A stretch of DNA of 35,956 bases. It comes from Pseudomonadota bacterium. GTDB lineage: Bacteria > Desulfobacterota > Desulfobulbia > Desulfobulbales > JAGXFP01. The DNA is taken from assembly GCA_018814305.1 (NCBI GenBank), contig JAHJAA010000066.1, positions 1 to 35,956 on the forward strand, read 5' to 3'. Shown piece by piece: positions 142-33,275 of this stretch (positions within the stretch are counted from its first letter, which is position 1; each line of letters begins with the position of its first letter). The notes under the pieces are model-generated. The model ran no database searches, had not been told where the DNA came from, and worked only from the letters and a program-made list of their open reading frames with translations. The position numbers and the translations under genes are program-made.

Positions 142-564
142 GTGGGTATCGGAAATGATACGACAACGACCAACTCATTAGGGCTCTATGCCCTGTCAAA
201 CCTCACCACAGGTAGTCGAACTATCGCAGCATCCCTGAATGGCTACGAGAGCTATCTTGGGACTGTAGTTGTCAGTACAGGAAGTACGGTCTCTCATAAT
301 ATCCAGCTAACACCTTCAGGTGGTGGGTCTTCGACAACGACAACAGTATTTCCGAATAATACCACTTCAACCACCTCAGGAGCTACAACCAGCACCTCAG
401 TGGGACAAACGACCACAACCAGCACCTCTGGGTCAGGTCCATCAACGACTATTCCTCCGGTTACAACAACCACCAGCACAACAACCACAACAACTACTGC
501 CCCAAGTTCAAGTGCCATTTTCAATACTTCGACCTTTGATAGTGGTGCGGTTTACGGAAACTAA
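142..564 (+). CDS. Thr-rich surface protein fragment with a carboxypeptidase-regulatory-like fold, probably broken at its 5' end
   Basis: The first ~60 residues resemble the second half of a carboxypeptidase-regulatory-like (PEGA/CarboxypepD_reg) beta-sandwich, with the typical pattern TTTTNSLGLYALSNLTTGS followed by a GY..Y..TVVVSTGSTV strand. Residues ~63-120 are a very Thr/Ser-rich linker of the kind seen in exported surface proteins. The frame is closed by several stops just upstream, the last ending at 120, and the GTG at 142 has no convincing ribosome binding site. No signal peptide or beginning of the domain is present. It therefore looks like the 3' part of a larger secreted protein cut by rearrangement near 120-140. 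Two other frames are open from the window edge (frame 2 to 180, frame 3 to about 170), but I recognise nothing in them. A real short gene is less likely. Confidence 0.45.
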   Translation: MGIGNDTTTTNSLGLYALSNLTTGSRTIAASLNGYESYLGTVVVSTGSTVSHNIQLTPSGGGSSTTTTVFPNNTTSTTSGATTSTSVGQTTTTSTSGSGPSTTIPPVTTTTSTTTTTTTAPSSSAIFNTSTFDSGAVYGN

Positions 565-598
565 TATTCTGAACAAGATAACGATAAGGCGAATAACG

Positions 599-1453
599 AT
601 GAAATATACAATAAAATGTTTAGCGATTGGTTGTCTTCTGATGGGTGTCCCTGCGGTAGCAATGGCAGGTGAAACGGTTACCAACTCCTTCTCATCAGGG
701 GAGGTAGTCAGTGCCAGTAAGATGAACTCGAATTTCAGCTTTTTGGCAGACAGGTCATGGGGGCTAATCGGTACTGATCTTTATTATACCGATGGCAGAG
801 TGGGGATTGGGACGAGTAGTCCAGCGACCAAATTAGATATTGTAGGGAATGGATCAACAAATTATAGCGCATTATTTCATGTTAAAGAAAATGGGACATC
901 CGCAATTGCTGATTTTGAACATTCATCTGGAGCAACTGCGACCGTCGTTGGAGGGGATATAAACTCATTTTTTGGATCTCGGAGCAACCATCCTGCCGCC
1001 TATGGGGCCAACAATACTGCGCATATATGGATAAATACAAATGGCAATGTCGGTATCGGTAAAACTACCACGTCCTACCCCCTTGAAATGGCATCAGGGG
1101 CCCACGTCACCATAGGAGGTGTCTGGACAGATGCTTCCAGTCGTGGGTTCAAAGAGAACATCAAAAAGCTGAAAGCTGAGGAAGCATATAAGGCACTAAG
1201 AGGCCTGGAACCAGTTACTTACAACTACAAAGTTGATCAGTCTGAAGAGTATGTTGGATTCATCGCTGAGGATGTTCCTGAAATGGTTGCCATGAAAGAC
1301 AGGAAGAGCCTGAGCCCGATGGATATGGTTGGTGTTCTGACTAAGGTTGTTCAGGAGCAGGATAGTCAGATTGTGGCCCAAAACACTCAAATTTCAGCTC
1401 TGACCGCCCTTGTATGTGTTGATCACCCAGAGGCTGATATCTGCCAGAAGTAA
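599..1453 (+). CDS. Secreted protein with C-terminal S74 (intramolecular chaperone) domain
   Basis: A 284-residue exported protein. Residues 1-23 form a signal peptide ending AVAMA before GETV. The middle (~50-175) carries two copies of a VGIG-type turn (68-71 and 151-154), as in tail-fibre-like trimeric proteins. Residues ~180-265 match the peptidase S74/endosialidase chaperone domain: SSRGFKENIKKL, then EPVTYNYK, YVGFIAEDVPEMV and SLSPMDMVGVLTKVVQEQ, followed by a short coiled coil. In this family the C-terminal domain drives trimer folding and often cleaves itself off. The ATG at 599 follows a weak AAGG; the frame is open further upstream, but that part overlaps the Thr-rich fragment and has no start signal. 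The signal peptide makes a secreted or surface trimer more likely than a phage fibre. A terminator follows at 1489-1526. Confidence 0.85.
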   Translation: MKYTIKCLAIGCLLMGVPAVAMAGETVTNSFSSGEVVSASKMNSNFSFLADRSWGLIGTDLYYTDGRVGIGTSSPATKLDIVGNGSTNYSALFHVKENGTSAIADFEHSSGATATVVGGDINSFFGSRSNHPAAYGANNTAHIWINTNGNVGIGKTTTSYPLEMASGAHVTIGGVWTDASSRGFKENIKKLKAEEAYKALRGLEPVTYNYKVDQSEEYVGFIAEDVPEMVAMKDRKSLSPMDMVGVLTKVVQEQDSQIVAQNTQISALTALVCVDHPEADICQK

Positions 1454-1488
1454 GCTCTAACAACAATCTTGAGTGAAACTCTCCTTTA

Positions 1489-1526
1489 GGGTGCTGGCTC
1501 TTTCTCCTTGGGCTGGCACCTTTTTT
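1489..1526 (+). terminator. Intrinsic terminator after the S74 protein
   Basis: An imperfect GC-rich stem (GGGTGCTGGC paired with GCTGGCACC) closes a pyrimidine-rich loop and is followed directly by six T residues. It lies ~35 bases after the stop of the S74-domain gene. Confidence 0.75.
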
Positions 1527-1613
1527 ATCGTCCAACCGCCCATACATCAAAATTCTGGCAATTTCGGGAACATCTTACTCAATTGCAAGCCAACATTTTT
1601 CCAAGGAGCTTAA

Positions 1614-1897
1614 TGGTGCATATTCCGGTCGAAGCCGACCGCTGTTCCGGCGGGAAGCCGACCGGCATTCCGATTTGATGGCGACCGGCATTCCGGCCGG
1701 ATGCCGACCGCTTTTCCGGAGCTATCCGACCGTTTATTAGTGATGTAGTCGCGAGGTAACTCAGCAGGTATCATCGCCCCTCATTCTACTGAGGGGAAAA
1801 GATGCCACAAGAGAGAGTTGCCATGCGAAAGATTCGAGATATACTCCGTTTGTCCTGGTCCTGTAACCAGAGCCGTCAAGCCATTGCCACCAGTTGT
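1614..1897 (+). mobile_element. Left-end remnant of an IS21-family insertion sequence
   Basis: Five copies of a ~23-base unit built on TTCCGG...GCCGACCG lie head to tail at about 1621-1732, after a TGGTGCATATTCCGG start. IS21-family elements characteristically carry multiple ~20 bp terminal repeats for transposase binding, followed by istA. The only coding part left starts at 1802 and is cut at about 1897. No istB and no right end are present in the window. The element is a decayed end and not a working transposon. Confidence 0.75.
1802..1897 (+). pseudogene. istA: IstA transposase N-terminal remnant (IS21 family)
   Basis: The first 32 codons read MPQERVAMRKIRDILRLSWS followed by CNQSRQAIATSC, the typical beginning of IS21 IstA with its first HTH helices (R-K-I-R-D-I-L-R-L, then S-R-Q-A-I-A). 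After Cys32 the similarity ends abruptly. The frame then runs into the foldback element at 1901 and unrelated sequence up to 2134. An IstA is normally ~340-510 residues, so over 90% is missing. Confidence 0.75.
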
Positions 1898-1900
1898 GAT

Positions 1901-2060
1901 TTGTTGCGTTGTTGCGTGTTGCGGGACGCTCTTAAACAACTAAACAACATGAGTGTTAAGATAAAGCCCAGACTCATGACTTCAATGGATTCAGGATGGG
2001 TAAGGAAAGGGATCAAGTTAGTTAGTTATTTAATAGCGTCCCGCAACACACGCCAACAAC
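1901..2060. repeat. ~160 bp foldback (MITE-like) element
   Basis: Outer arms at 1908-1930 and 2035-2060 are inverted copies sharing AGCGTCCCGCAACAC and CAACAAC. The complementarity continues more weakly inward (about 1931-1948 against 2017-2034), and an inner hairpin CATGAGT/ACTCATG is nested inside. No ORF of its own is seen. It abuts the break in istA, so it may mark the junction of the deletion that removed the rest of the IS. Confidence 0.65.
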
Positions 2061-2157
2061 TTGATTTTACCAAATTTGAGCACCAGACAGTTTATTTTAG
2101 CAATATTTTCCATCCGGAAATACTTGTGTTTTGAGGGTAAAAATATATCATTTTTAT

Positions 2158-2426
2158 ATGGAATTTGAATTTGATGAGAACAAAAGCCAACTGAACCGAG
2201 AAAAAATGGGATTGATTTTATTGAAGCCCAGATCCTTTGGGAAGATCCTGATCTGTTGGAAATACCAGCCAAAACGGTTGACGAACAGAGACTTCTTGTT
2301 ATCGGAAAAATCGCAGACAAGTATTGGTCCGGTATAATTACCTACCGTTCTACAAGAAGACGGATCATTTCAGTACGTCGTGCACGACAAGAGGAGGTTG
2401 CATTGTATGAAAGCGAAAGATTTTGA
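2158..2426 (+). pseudogene. brnT: BrnT-type toxin, frameshifted
   Basis: Two adjacent frames together encode a complete BrnT-like protein of ~90 residues. The first gives MEFEFDENKSQLNREK. After a one-base slip the second gives IDFIEAQILWEDPDLLEIPA, then KTVDEQRLLVIGKIADKYW, SGIITYRS and RRRIISVRRARQEEV, ending at a TGA at 2424-2426. The break lies in or beside the A-run 2201-2206, where the family expects a codon (usually His) before Gly-Ile-Asp. BrnT is a RelE-like ribonuclease toxin. As read, the frame would give only an inactive product. A one-base sequencing error or slippage on the A-run would restore it. The gene overlaps brnA by 20 bases, the usual BrnT-BrnA arrangement. Confidence 0.8.
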
Positions 2427-2634
2427 TAAGACATTCGAAAAAGGGGCGGATATAACCGCTCATCTTGATCTCGACAAAGCCCGAAGACCGGAGCAGATAG
2501 CAAAAAGAATTAACATCGATTTCCCTGCCTGGGTTGTTCAGCGGGTTGATAAAGAAGCAATACGACTAGGAGTGAGCCGCCAAGCTCTGTTAAAAATCTG
2601 GCTAGCCGAAAAGGTTGAAGGGAAGGCAACCTGA
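2407..2634 (+). CDS. brnA: BrnA-family antitoxin
   Basis: A 75-residue protein, MKAKDFDKTFEKGADITAHL..., with the family hallmarks: an acidic N-terminus (DFDKTFEKGADIT) that contacts the toxin, then ARRPEQIAKRINIDFPAWVV and a C-terminal ribbon-helix-helix-like DNA-binding region ending VSRQALLKIWLAEKVE. I chose the ATG at 2407 because GAGGAGG lies just upstream and because it matches the family start; the frame is open to 2380 without such a signal. BrnA neutralises BrnT and represses the operon. Here the antitoxin frame is intact while the toxin frame is broken, so it may be a relic or may still repress its promoter. It converges on the MFS gene with only 12 bases between stops. Confidence 0.85.
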   Translation: MKAKDFDKTFEKGADITAHLDLDKARRPEQIAKRINIDFPAWVVQRVDKEAIRLGVSRQALLKIWLAEKVEGKAT

Positions 2635-2646
2635 CCTTCATCTAGC

Positions 2647-3873
2647 TTACGAAGTAACTTTCGGCAACCTTGAAGCCAGGATCGCGCCAAGGCCTGCCAA
2701 AAAGGCGGTTATGAGAAAACTTGAGAAGAAAGAACCGCTCCGCTCTGCCATGAGACCTGCCGCAGCAGGGGCCGATATCTGACCCAACGAAAAAATAAAG
2801 GTAATAAACCCGAATACCCGGGCGGCATGACGAGGTCCGGCCAGATCGCCGACCAAAGCAGCCATGATTGATGGAATCGACCAGGCAGTGATGCCGAAGC
2901 ACCCTATGGAAAGATAGAGAAAAAAGTGAGGCAGTCCCTGCCAACCGGCAAAGAGATAGCTAATTGCCTGAATGGCAAAAACCGTGACCAATGCCGACCG
3001 GCGACTGAATCGATCGGACATAGTACCGAAGATCGGCCCGGACATCAGGCTCAAGCCACCCACCCAGGCCCAGAAATTCCCGGCCAGCGCTTCCGAAAAT
3101 CCCCGATCACGAATCATCGAGGTCACGATGAAGGTCACATAGACCACATAGGTGGCGCCGAACAAGAAATAGAGCGCCCCCAGATGGGCGAGATTTTTCC
3201 GGCTGATCCTTTTCTCAGGCTCACACCACTCACCACGGTCGGCAACTGGCGCTTTCTCTCCGTAAGGTTCCAGCCCCATATCCCTTGGAGAATTCCTTAA
3301 CACCAGTGCATCAATCAAGAAGACGACCAGCACCAGCCCCCCCAGGACCAGCCAGCCCGACCGCCATCCTTCGGCACCCCCACGACTATTGAGCCAGGGT
3401 ACCAACTTACCCGCCAGCAGGATGGCAAAGCCGCTACCGATCACCACGAACCCGGTGGCCCGCCCCCTGCGACTACTGGTGAACCAGGAGGAGGACAGTG
3501 CCATGATCGGCACATTAGCCCCACCGCTGCCTAGACCGGTGAAGAAATAAAGAACCAGAATCATCAAATAGGCATGGCTGATGCCGATCAGCATCATTGA
3601 CAAACCAACAATCAGAAGTGCCAGGGCGATGGTGGCACGATGGCCGATACGAGCCGCCACGGTGCCGCAGACCAGAACCGCAAGCAGGTAGCCGGTGAAG
3701 TTGATCGTTGAGATCAATCCCATCTGGGAGTAATCAAGACCCAAAGAAGCGCCCATGGCAGGCAGTAGCATGCCCAGAGCAAAACGCCCCAGTCCCAGAC
3801 AGGCGAAGATCCCCAGGGTGGAACTCCAGACGATATGCCAGCCGTAATGGAGGCGAGGGGAAGAAGTGGTCAT
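2647..3873 (-). CDS. MFS transporter, YbfB/YjiJ-like
   Basis: A 408-residue protein with about 12 hydrophobic helices and the usual MFS halves. It begins MTTSSPRLHYGWHIVWSSTL and carries a helix 2-3 loop (GTVAARIGHRATIA) and a second-half loop (FGTMSDRFSRRSALVT) with the D-R/RR signature. The FARFALG-like GRFALGMLLP motif in helix 1 and the overall pattern point to the YbfB/YjiJ (MFS_4-like) group of uncharacterised carriers in the inner membrane. It is 134 bases downstream of the aminotransferase on the same strand, so it may be co-transcribed and move an amino acid or 2-oxo/aryl acid; that role is inference from position. The ribosome binding site is weak. Confidence 0.85.
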   Translation of the reverse strand: MTTSSPRLHYGWHIVWSSTLGIFACLGLGRFALGMLLPAMGASLGLDYSQMGLISTINFTGYLLAVLVCGTVAARIGHRATIALALLIVGLSMMLIGISHAYLMILVLYFFTGLGSGGANVPIMALSSSWFTSSRRGRATGFVVIGSGFAILLAGKLVPWLNSRGGAEGWRSGWLVLGGLVLVVFLIDALVLRNSPRDMGLEPYGEKAPVADRGEWCEPEKRISRKNLAHLGALYFLFGATYVVYVTFIVTSMIRDRGFSEALAGNFWAWVGGLSLMSGPIFGTMSDRFSRRSALVTVFAIQAISYLFAGWQGLPHFFLYLSIGCFGITAWSIPSIMAALVGDLAGPRHAARVFGFITFIFSLGQISAPAAAGLMAERSGSFFSSFLITAFLAGLGAILASRLPKVTS

Positions 3874-29544: not shown

Positions 29545-30969
29545 ATGCTCGATTCACTCTTCAACATACTTTCCGATTGGCGATCCCTGCTGGACATCGT
29601 GCTCCTCGCTACCATTGTTTACATCCTCTACCATTCTCTGAGGACCTCCGGCACCTTGAAAATTGCCGTTGGCCTGACCCTTGCCGCCGGCACGGCCCTG
29701 GTCGCAGGTTTGCTTGATCTCCGGGGGGTTGAATGGGTCTTTTCAAATTTAAGCCAGATAACCTTCCTGGCCCTGATCATCATCTTTCAGCCTGAACTCC
29801 GGAAAATCCTCGAGCGTTCAACCTCTCTGCTCCACCACTCTTCCTCGGATAATAGAGGTGTGCTCTTTTCCCTCCTTGATGAAGCGGCATTCTCCCTTGC
29901 CGAGAGAAACTGGGGCGCCCTGATCGTGATCCCCGGTCGAACCTCGCTCCAGCAATGGACCAGTGGTGGGATTGAACTGGATGCTTTACCGAGCCTCCCT
30001 CTGCTGCTCAGTATCTTTGATCCGGACTCCCCGGGACATGATGGGGCACTCATTGTCAACAATGGGAAATTAGAACGATTTGCAGTCCGACTCCCCCTTT
30101 CACAGTCCGGCATTCTCTCCGAATCACTCGGAACCCGCCATCACGCTGCCATGGGACTGGCTGAACAAAGCGATGCCTTAATCCTTGCCGTCTCCGAGGA
30201 ACGGGGCACAGTCAGTGTTTTTTGCCATGGCGAGATGGCCATCCTGAAAAAAAGAGGGGACGCGGCCACCCGGATCTCTGCCCACCTGAAGGATGGTGGT
30301 CTGCCACAATCGACGCCTTTGCCCAAACAGCGCTGGAAGGTCAGCCTGGAAATCATGACCAGTTTAATTGTGTCTATTCTCTTCTGGTCAACGGTTATTG
30401 CCAGCCGGACGGAATCCCGTGAAATGTTCTTTACCCTGCCCATTGAGTTCAATAAACCTCCAGCCGGGCTTAGCTTGGTAAGCGATAATACTCCCGATTG
30501 CCGAGTTCTTCTGGAAGGCCCTTTTTCCTCACTCATGAACCTTGATACCTCCCGCTTGCGCGTTTCGGTGGATCTGGCCGGCATGGAGGCCGGCAACCAG
30601 TTGGTCATGTTATCCGGCGAAAATGTCATGACCCCGAAAAACATCAGGGTTTTGGATATAAAACCTTCGGCTCTTGAGGTGGAACTGAGCCGGATCAACT
30701 CCTCTTTCATGTCCATAAAACCGCAGCTGATCGGTTCGCCGCCCTCGGGTTACTCAATTGCTTCAATTGAGGTACTGCCGGCCCAACTCAAGGTCTTTCT
30801 CCCGGAAGAAAACCGCCTCAACCAACAACTGTTGACCACGCCTATCTACCTCCATGGCGTACGAGAGGATACCTCGGTGTTCTGCAAAATTATTATCCCC
30901 CAGGGTGTCCGGCCAATGAGCATTCCCCTGCCTGATGTCGAGGTCCGCATCCATGTGGAGAAGAAATAG
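29545..30969 (+). CDS. cdaA: Diadenylate cyclase CdaA fused to YbbR/CdaR-like domains
   Basis: A 474-residue membrane protein. Residues 1-~85 hold three N-terminal helices ending in FQPELRKILERS, as in CdaA. The DAC domain (~100-245) carries both catalytic motifs, DGA in GHDGALIV (166-168) and RHHAA in GTRHHAAMG (198-202), so it should make c-di-AMP from two ATP. A further helix (~267-286) crosses the membrane, and ~295-474 reads as one or two YbbR-type beta domains outside the membrane (FTLPIEFNKPPAGLSLVSDN, ... IKPQLIGSPPSGYSIASIEV). In Firmicutes CdaA and its regulator CdaR (YbbR) are separate neighbouring genes; here both are one chain. The next gene starts ~90 bases later. Confidence 0.88.
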   Translation: MLDSLFNILSDWRSLLDIVLLATIVYILYHSLRTSGTLKIAVGLTLAAGTALVAGLLDLRGVEWVFSNLSQITFLALIIIFQPELRKILERSTSLLHHSSSDNRGVLFSLLDEAAFSLAERNWGALIVIPGRTSLQQWTSGGIELDALPSLPLLLSIFDPDSPGHDGALIVNNGKLERFAVRLPLSQSGILSESLGTRHHAAMGLAEQSDALILAVSEERGTVSVFCHGEMAILKKRGDAATRISAHLKDGGLPQSTPLPKQRWKVSLEIMTSLIVSILFWSTVIASRTESREMFFTLPIEFNKPPAGLSLVSDNTPDCRVLLEGPFSSLMNLDTSRLRVSVDLAGMEAGNQLVMLSGENVMTPKNIRVLDIKPSALEVELSRINSSFMSIKPQLIGSPPSGYSIASIEVLPAQLKVFLPEENRLNQQLLTTPIYLHGVREDTSVFCKIIIPQGVRPMSIPLPDVEVRIHVEKK

Positions 30970-31061: not shown

Positions 31062-33275
31062 ATGAAATTCTTAAAAAAACTATTCAAGGCACTCAATTCA
31101 GCCCAGGCCCCTTGGCAGGTGACCTTGGCCATAGCCTCGGGGATGGTTTCAGGACTGACTCCGATTTCGGGTCTGCAAACGGTGGTCATCCTTTTTCTGG
31201 TTTTTTTGTTGAATATCCACCTGGGACTCTTTTTTGTCGCCTCAGCCTTTTTTGCCGGCATCGGCTATCTGTTTGATCCGTGGTTTGAGCAGATCGGTTA
31301 CGCATTACTCAACAGCGACAGCCTCGTCGGACTGTGGACGACCTGGTACAACAGCGAAGTAATCAGGATGAGTTATTTCAACAATACCCTGGTTCTCGGT
31401 TCAACCTTGGCCTCGCTGGTGTTGGCCCCCCCGCTCTATCTTTTTCTTGGTTGGATAATCAGACATTACCGGGAGACCCTCTCAGTGGTACTGGGCAAAT
31501 ATCCGCGCTTAGGACTGTTCGGGATCCTCAAGACAGTACCAACCAAGGATCCGCTGATTCGCTGGTGGGGTGCGGGGCTCTTTCTCGGAGTAGCCGTCTT
31601 GGCCTGCGTCATCGCTCTGGTCTTTATCAACCCGACCGCGAAATGGGTGATGGAAAAGGGTGGCAGTCGGCTGTTGCAACGTGACGTGCGGGTCGGCGAC
31701 GTCGAGGTAGGTTTGGGGGTAATTGCCATTAACCGTATTGAAATTGCCAGCGAGAAAGAGGGTGTTGATGCCCTTTCGGTCGAGCAAACCTTATTTGACC
31801 TTGACCTGGTGGCCCTGCTGATGAACCGAACCCATATCGAGGATCTATCCTTCATAGGGCTCGGCTTGAACACCCCGGCCACCCTGAAAAAATCGGTGGC
31901 ACTCTCCACCTCTGTTGATCCAGGAACGGTTCAATCCGACGACCGCACCATCACCCTGCCTACCTTTGAGCTGCCCACCCCGGAATCGATCATGGCCAAG
32001 ACCGACCTGGAATCGGTCAAAGTCTACCATCAGGGAGAGCAGGAAATTCCAGCGCTCGTTGCCAAATGGAAGCAAGTCGCCAACAACGACTTCTCCCCCG
32101 ATGAATTGGAGCAGTTGAAAATGGAGTTTGAGGCCCTCAAAAAGAAAAGCGAATCCAAGGATCCCCAACAGATGCTCCAACTCATCAACCAGGTTCCAGC
32201 CTTCACCACGAAGCTTCAGACTAAGCAGAAACGAATCACCATGTTGCAGGATGAGTTTAAAGCTGACCGGCAAAGGATCGAACAGCTCTATGAGAAGTTC
32301 GATCAAGCATCCAAGGCGGATTTTGAGCGGCTGAAGGCAAACTATACCCTGGACAACAACGGGGCCATGAATGTGATCGGTTTACTACTCAGCGATAAAA
32401 TCAAAACATATCTTACACTGGCCCAAAGATATTATACCAAGGTGGCACCGTATCTGAAAAGTGAACCGAAACCTCCGGTTCCTCCTCGGGGTGAAGGCCG
32501 CTGGATGACCTTTCCCTTGAGAGAGGCGCGCCCTGAACTCTTTATCGCCAAAGCCGAGATTAACGGAATCGTAGACGCCCAATCTTTCATCCTGACCGCC
32601 CACGATATCTCCGATAACCAGAAAGCCGTGGGGCGTCCGATATCCTTTGAAATTAAAAGTGAAGGACCCCGGATCAGTTCGTTATCCATCCGCGGAGAAG
32701 ATAACCGTCTGGGCGAGCAGTCCTTGGATCGGCTGAATTTTGAGGTCCAAGGACTTACACTTGAGGCCATAAACTTTGATGCCATACATTTTGGACAGAG
32801 CCGCCTTGCCGTGGGCGGAGATATCGCCCTTGAAGCAATGCAAAGACTCAGCGGCACCAACACCTTGACCTTCAGCGAAACAACCATGGGCATGTCTGGT
32901 GACACCAAGACCTCAAGGATCGTCGGGGATGTCCTGAGTTCCATCAAGAGCTTTAAAGCCTCAGTCTCGCTTGCAGGAACCCTCGAAAAGCCCGAAGTCT
33001 CGGTGGACACTGACCTTGACCAAAAGCTGTCCGCCGCAGTATCGGGTGAACTTAGCAAACAGGCCACAACCTTCCGGAACGACCTCCAACGGAAATTAAA
33101 CAGCCAAGCGAGCAGCCAACTTAAAGCACTTAAAGGAAGTGCCGGGGGATTGGTTGATATCAATACCTTGGCTGTTCAGCAAAATGCGTTGATCAGTGGC
33201 TATCTTACCGAAGCCGGTGGACTGCTGGGAAAAAAAGGTGGCGGAGGATCACTGAAGGGAATTCTCCCGTTTTAA
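31062..33275 (+). CDS. Fused TIGR03546/TIGR03545-like membrane protein
   Basis: A 737-residue protein. Residues 1-~160 match the small DUF2062-like membrane family TIGR03546 (MKFLKKLFKALNSAQAPWQV, then GMVSGLTPISGLQT and LFDPWFEQIGYALL). A further helix at ~168-190 (WWGAGLFLGVAVLACVIALV) starts a large TIGR03545-like region: GGSRLLQRDVRVGDVEVGLG, an AsmA/DUF748-like beta segment, a coiled coil at ~345-425, more beta repeats with RPISFEIKSEGPRISS, and a C-terminal LAGTLEKPEVSVDTDLDQKL. In other bacteria I know these two families as adjacent separate genes; here they are joined. Both have unknown roles, and an envelope or lipid-transport function is only suggested by the AsmA-like parts. AAGGAG precedes the ATG. 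Confidence 0.8.
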   Translation: MKFLKKLFKALNSAQAPWQVTLAIASGMVSGLTPISGLQTVVILFLVFLLNIHLGLFFVASAFFAGIGYLFDPWFEQIGYALLNSDSLVGLWTTWYNSEVIRMSYFNNTLVLGSTLASLVLAPPLYLFLGWIIRHYRETLSVVLGKYPRLGLFGILKTVPTKDPLIRWWGAGLFLGVAVLACVIALVFINPTAKWVMEKGGSRLLQRDVRVGDVEVGLGVIAINRIEIASEKEGVDALSVEQTLFDLDLVALLMNRTHIEDLSFIGLGLNTPATLKKSVALSTSVDPGTVQSDDRTITLPTFELPTPESIMAKTDLESVKVYHQGEQEIPALVAKWKQVANNDFSPDELEQLKMEFEALKKKSESKDPQQMLQLINQVPAFTTKLQTKQKRITMLQDEFKADRQRIEQLYEKFDQASKADFERLKANYTLDNNGAMNVIGLLLSDKIKTYLTLAQRYYTKVAPYLKSEPKPPVPPRGEGRWMTFPLREARPELFIAKAEINGIVDAQSFILTAHDISDNQKAVGRPISFEIKSEGPRISSLSIRGEDNRLGEQSLDRLNFEVQGLTLEAINFDAIHFGQSRLAVGGDIALEAMQRLSGTNTLTFSETTMGMSGDTKTSRIVGDVLSSIKSFKASVSLAGTLEKPEVSVDTDLDQKLSAAVSGELSKQATTFRNDLQRKLNSQASSQLKALKGSAGGLVDINTLAVQQNALISGYLTEAGGLLGKKGGGGSLKGILPF

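Follow-up and report, generated by a model that had tools for sequence, protein, structure and literature searches.

The window, a stretch of 35,956 bp from a Desulfobulbales genome (Desulfobacterota), carries on its forward strand an uninterrupted open reading frame (positions 29545–30969) that starts with ATG, contains no internal stop codon, and encodes a protein of 474 amino acids, an extent backed by full-length homologues. According to Pfam, the N-terminal part is a CdaA_N transmembrane domain (PF19293; residues 13–84, 29581–29796; 38.1 bits, 1.8e-9) and is followed by a diadenylate cyclase (DAC) domain (PF02457; residues 113–230, 29881–30234; 111.4 bits, 2.6e-32), both above the curated cut-offs. 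Hydropathy analysis placed three helices in the N-terminal part (residues 14–32, 40–58, and 62–80) and a fourth transmembrane helix after the DAC domain (residues 268–286, 30346–30402; hydropathy 1.9), flanked by basic residues on the DAC side. The remainder of the chain comprises a first YbbR domain (residues 292–384, 30418–30696) and a second YbbR-like domain (residues 385–473, 30697–30963); the Pfam YbbR model (PF07949) matched with 27.4 bits (4.2e-6) against a cut-off of 22.3, its best stretch covering residues 299–369 and a second stretch also being reported. The next gene, about 93 bases downstream on the same strand, encodes a membrane protein of 737 amino acids (31062–33275) that unites the NCBIfam families TIGR03546 and TIGR03545, otherwise represented by separate models.

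An AlphaFold2 model obtained with 23 homologues as input (mean pLDDT 80.7) contained the N-terminal transmembrane domain and the fourth helix (residues 260–288); because its pTM was low (0.40), the relative placement of the parts in this model is not to be trusted. Taken individually, residues 98–250 matched CdaA crystal structures with Z scores of about 25 (e.g., 8ogk: Z 25.5, rmsd 1.8, 152 residues aligned), residues 292–384 matched the YbbR structure 3lyw (Z 12.7, rmsd 1.6, 86 aligned), and residues 281–474, which span both YbbR units, matched 4qdy (Z 12.0, rmsd 5.7, 183 aligned). The protein thus belongs to the DAC superfamily by profile, fold, and the presence of the catalytic Asp, Arg, and His, and to the YbbR family by an above-cut-off domain, a YbbR fold, and a preceding membrane helix. 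The fourth helix is predicted to put the YbbR domains across the membrane from the DAC domain.

The original prediction had placed both functions in one chain of 474 residues with a fourth membrane helix between them. Pfam and the fold comparison bear out the single chain, and hydropathy and the model agree on the helix. Neither of the two faults the prediction had allowed for was found, since the C-terminal half scores above the YbbR cut-off and independent homologues align across the junction without a stop or frameshift between the parts. A frameshift or an assembly join was ruled out as the origin of the reading frame, full-length homologues with 38–50% identity spanning the junction in independent genomes. 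CdaA_N and DAC were present in all 23 aligned homologues and YbbR in 22 of them.

Active-site signature and position among diadenylate cyclases

The ATP site was compared in an alignment of 157 DACs, composed of 66 one-chain proteins and 91 separate CdaAs. DGA and RHHAA had initially been listed as the two DAC motifs. The first stands, in the form HDGA (residues 165–168, 30037–30048), whose His, Asp, and Gly are invariant in the 157 sequences and whose Ala occurs in 131, the others having Gly or Ser. RHHAA is not the standard motif but a departure from RHR: the window protein reads GTRHHA (residues 196–201, 30130–30147), with His200 at the third RHR position, where Arg is found in 91 of 91 separate CdaAs and in 14 of 66 one-chain proteins (His in 25, Thr in 16). 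No sequence of the alignment deviates at the Gly, the first Arg, or the His of GxRHx, or at the Ser-Glu of SEE. Alanine at the Asp of DGA (D172) or at the first Arg (R203) abolished the activity of Leptospira CdaA (PMC12974146), and the equivalents of both residues are present in the one-chain protein; in M. tuberculosis, changing RHR to AAA abolished activity (PMC3328451). The third RHR Arg is nevertheless not universal in DACs, since a DacZ-like protein of the same phylum reads GARHHAA.

Other positions of the site also set the group apart. HDGA lies within a group-specific FDPxSPGHDGA (FDxxSxGHDGA as the signature of the one-chain group), and 56 of 66 one-chain proteins share the preceding Gly164 of the window protein, whereas 84 of 91 separate CdaAs have Leu or Met there. 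Tyr187 of CdaA, which stacks on the adenine and is described as crucial for catalysis (PMC10167629), corresponds to Arg182 (30088–30090); among the 66 one-chain proteins, 54 have Arg or His here, against none of the 91 separate CdaAs, of which only 45 have Tyr. The Leu that forms a hydrogen bond with the adenine (Leu188 in CdaA) is retained as Leu183. Further downstream, the window protein reads SEERG (residues 217–221, 30193–30207) where most canonical CdaAs read SEETG; at position 220, after SEE, 55 of 66 one-chain proteins have Arg, as do 3 of 91 separate CdaAs, while 85 of the latter have Thr. A basic residue follows SEE in 47 of the 52 one-chain members devoid of the third Arg, which suggests that it may partly replace the third Arg of RHR. 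At the position by which B. subtilis CdaA contacts GlmM (R126), the window protein has Arg, and a basic residue is found in 32 of 66 one-chain proteins versus 79 of 91 separate CdaAs.

A tree of 113 DACs was calculated from the residues preceding and including the DAC domain, with the tail excluded and the two motif residues under study masked. A single branch with an SH-aLRT support of 100 divided 66 long-tailed proteins, defined by 170 or more residues downstream of RHx, from 47 separate CdaAs of Firmicutes and Desulfobacterota plus single rows of other phyla. A tree of 81 rows showed the same split with 100/100 support, in 100% of the bootstrap trees examined. Among the sampled proteins, the one-chain enzymes therefore appear as a single branch of their own, sister to the known CdaAs; the sampling was guided by resemblance to the window protein and leans towards Desulfobacterota and Firmicutes, and the tree is unrooted, so that the order of fusion and fission is not readable from it. 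The window protein falls in a sub-branch of 26 rows with a GTRHHAAMGL-type motif (GTRHYA in one row), usually found beside a canonical CdaA. The combined trait of fusion and motif change shifts once on the tree and thus provides one evolutionary pair for comparison; the Fisher p value for this association therefore reflects related sequences rather than separate events. Because all active-site differences coincide with this one branch, they are to be read as lineage signatures rather than as independent tests. Within the canonical CdaA branch, none of the proteins was found to be fused.

The NCBIfam CdaA model TIGR00159 scored the one-chain protein at 165.2 bits, below its cut-off of 188.8, and the canonical copy of the same genome at 242.7; among seven other one-chain proteins only L025 exceeded the cut-off (201.7). 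The scores against the NCBIfam models of DisA (38.4 of 201), CdaS (107.1 of 225), and CdaM (73.1 of 225) were all below their cut-offs. Like CdaA (DacA), the protein has a three-helix CdaA_N anchor and a predicted cytoplasmic DAC domain with HDGA and GxRH, and, like the CdaA/CdaR pair, it would hold its YbbR domains on the membrane side opposite the DAC. It differs from CdaA (TIGR00159) in bearing the regulator domain on the cyclase chain, in having His as the third RHR residue (GTRHHA, not GxRHRxA) and SEER instead of SEET, in having neither a cdaR nor a glmM neighbour in the window, and in falling opposite the separate CdaAs in the DAC tree. With the CdaR/YbbR proteins 3lyw, 4qdy, and 5hqh it shares a single membrane helix that leads into YbbR domains of matching fold; unlike in CdaR, these domains are borne on the cyclase chain downstream of the DAC, and there are only two units. 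Relatives from Desulfobulbus elongatus (L062), Desulfogranum marinum (L059), and an Omnitrophota bacterium (L063) have the same architecture, the group motifs, and the same tree family.

Canonical system in the same genome and distribution of one-chain proteins

A canonical cdaA-cdaR-glmM operon was located on contig C58 of the same 4.15 Mb genome, composed of a CdaA-type DAC gene with the motif RHRAA, a gene for a separate YbbR protein (335 aa), and a GlmM-type gene of the phosphoglucomutase family. Although the idea of a covalent CdaA-CdaR version holds insofar as both functions are on one chain, the one-chain gene is not a fusion of the genome's own CdaA and CdaR, both of which are present as separate genes; the existence of this operon elsewhere in the genome makes the one-chain protein an additional cyclase and not the local pair joined together. 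Five DHH-domain proteins were also identified in the genome, one of which, on contig C44, is homologous to the DHH neighbours of one-chain genes elsewhere, together with six TrkA_C matches. The genome was also searched for the c-di-AMP riboswitch (RF00379), with no match above the threshold, and for a PgpH-type phosphodiesterase or the PgpH extracytoplasmic domain (PF07697), with no match.

Homologues on the contigs were recovered with an alignment as query; a single-sequence query gave no match. A survey of the Desulfobacterota for the same fusion, as the original prediction had proposed, yielded full-length matches (the N-terminal part through about residue 360 or further, with no internal stop) in roughly 90 of 297 genomes sampled across the phylum, counted by eye. 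The architecture is common rather than rare in the phylum and extends to others: records of Omnitrophota and Patescibacteria include proteins that combine CdaA_N, DAC, and YbbR, and in Planctomycete and Verrucomicrobia records CdaA_N and DAC are joined to a tail unrecognised by Pfam. In about 20 further genomes the match crossed a single stop, corresponding to cdaA and cdaR adjacent in the same frame (e.g., L023, 1387–2925), an arrangement one mutation short of a fusion.

The named close relatives are Desulfobulbus elongatus DSM 2908, Desulfogranum marinum DSM 2058, Desulfopila sp. IMCC35006, and Desulfobulbus MAGs. Within the order Desulfobulbales, the close group was found in 19 of 146 genomes scattered across six families, nearly always alongside a canonical CdaA. 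The window's own family has the protein in one of five sampled members, and it is therefore dispensable there. Elsewhere, at least 10 sampled genomes, including those of family f35 and others, gave no DAC other than the one-chain protein, and in several of these it is also the only YbbR protein. Seven of eight f35 genomes checked had a single YbbR match, located in the fusion, and G131 had two, both in the fusion. In G350, a single-contig genome, no DAC other than the one-chain protein has intact motifs, and there is no YbbR match outside it; the next DAC match has a degenerate site (VDGA...GARYN).

Two further kinds of DAC-related proteins were observed. DAC-like proteins of about 480–520 residues with a degenerate site (VDGA, GARYN, VSSDRP; e.g., L215 419–1975 and L216 1486–2934) occur in many Desulfobulbales genomes and may be nucleotide-binding sensors. 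DacZ-like DACs, best known from archaea, were found in this bacterial phylum in L217, L219, L220, and L221, with RHI, RHH, or RHR. Both kinds share the DAC fold family with the one-chain protein and have other N-terminal parts, with no CdaA_N or YbbR apparent by sequence inspection.

Gene neighbourhood

The genes next to the one-chain gene in the window have no known link to c-di-AMP, and most close homologues have unrelated neighbours. A shared operon function with the downstream TIGR03546/TIGR03545 gene was considered and rejected, no relative having that gene within the flanks examined; since the linkage is absent from relatives, this gene probably lies outside the one-chain system. A conserved neighbourhood of the close homologues was likewise rejected, the surroundings being varied beyond a genus-level conservation in Desulfobulbus, where the upstream neighbours encode an M16 peptidase, a short-chain dehydrogenase, and an unknown protein. 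Other one-chain genes adjoin genes encoding LptF/LptG (L207, 7705–8784) or DUF2914 proteins (L210, L211, L212).

In some genomes, the neighbours fit c-di-AMP biology, a pattern that is suggestive only. Five loci belonging to several phyla have a gene for a DHH or DHH-DHHA1 phosphodiesterase-type protein directly next to the one-chain gene (L052 7222–8247, L063 4148–5224, L064 6599–7657, L065 6627–7694, and L093 6735–7985), and the DHH-type and one-chain genes overlap by 4 bases in L052/L034. In the close homologue of G135 (L036), genes for a TrkA_N-TrkA_C-Usp protein and a Na/H exchanger follow on the same strand (381–3229, minus strand), possibly forming a c-di-AMP-controlled ion transport unit. 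Elsewhere in bacteria, TrkA_C and Usp domains are established receptors of c-di-AMP, and the Usp domain of KdpD has reportedly been studied as such a receptor. Close homologues in two other loci are followed, after about 52 or 36 bases, by a gene for an MgtE magnesium transporter that contains CBS domains (L059 1878–3215; L202 7535–8878).

Proposed function and alternative explanations

On balance, the one-chain protein is probably an active c-di-AMP synthase that carries its own regulatory module in the periplasm. The three N-terminal helices would anchor the cytoplasmic DAC domain at the inner membrane, and the chain would recross the membrane after the DAC and end in two periplasmic YbbR domains. 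Two DAC domains meeting face to face would make c-di-AMP from ATP, and the state or contacts of the YbbR domains may alter the packing of the helices and hence this meeting, as is thought for the action of separate CdaR on CdaA. In the genome analysed here the protein would provide a second c-di-AMP input beside the canonical CdaA-CdaR-GlmM, and genomes with no other DAC would depend on it entirely for c-di-AMP. This reading is supported by the domains and folds, the invariant HDG, GxRH, and SE residues, the genomes with no other DAC, and the fitting neighbours of some members. It is weakened by the departures of the ATP site from the canonical one at Arg182, His200, and Arg220, by the lack of a c-di-AMP link among the gene's own neighbours, and by its presence in one of five family members. 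Regarding regulation, an interaction of separate YbbR with the transmembrane region of CdaA has been described (PMC6368335), and CdaR may activate or repress CdaA depending on conditions, by a mechanism stated as unclear (PMC8573169); that no conclusive regulatory role of YbbR was found in S. aureus (PMC6368335) also weakens the reading.

The S. aureus result would also fit constitutive c-di-AMP synthesis by an enzyme whose YbbR part is a structural anchor, stabilising or placing it at the envelope with no sensing role. In favour of such an anchor, the YbbR part is the most divergent region of the one-chain alignment, and in shorter members the tail fits one YbbR domain only. Against it stand the retention of the YbbR part in 22 of 23 aligned members and across phyla and the reported change of CdaA activity by CdaR in other Firmicutes (PMC8573169), and we regard this explanation as unlikely. 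A catalytically dead or weak paralogue, serving as a nucleotide-binding receptor or as a modulator of the canonical CdaA, could be envisaged from the intact canonical CdaA in the same genome, the change of the third RHR Arg to His, and the lower DAC score (115 versus 147 bits for the canonical copy). Against it stand the invariant catalytic Asp, first Arg, His, and SE pair, the many genomes in which the protein is the only DAC, and the RHH of a DacZ-like DAC of the phylum, and we regard it as improbable. Least probable of all is that the remodelled ATP site, with its coordinated group changes (Tyr187 to Arg/His, a relaxed third RHR position, SEET to SEER, and Leu to Gly ahead of HDGA), yields a product other than c-di-AMP or acts on another nucleotide or a mixture of nucleotides under YbbR regulation, given that HDGA, GxRH, and the adenine-bonding Leu are all retained, that DHH-type phosphodiesterase genes adjoin some members, and that about half of the separate CdaAs likewise have no Tyr at the Tyr187 position.

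Beyond the reading of a c-di-AMP synthase with a built-in regulatory module, we tentatively raise the possibility of an ancient, separate family of transmembrane receptor-cyclases. Such a family would use an ATP site independent of Tyr187 stacking and of the third Arg, escape control by GlmM, convert an envelope signal directly into c-di-AMP, and replace CdaA-CdaR-GlmM entirely in several bacterial lineages.

Each of the domains and the CdaA-CdaR partnership are already known, and the one-chain arrangement can readily be seen in public genomes; a description of it was not found in the literature searched, and an earlier listing may exist in the census of DAC architectures by Galperin (2023). 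The apparent additions of this analysis are the single separate branch with its own active-site signature, the role of the protein as sole DAC in several genomes, and its coexistence with a canonical system in this one. Since cyclase and YbbR are paired at a fixed stoichiometry in a natural one-chain protein, domain deletions or point mutations in one gene could test YbbR signalling through the membrane. The altered ATP site raises the question of which active-site residues a diadenylate cyclase really needs, and the protein offers a concrete entry point to the c-di-AMP biology of Gram-negative anaerobes, some of which have it as their sole DAC.
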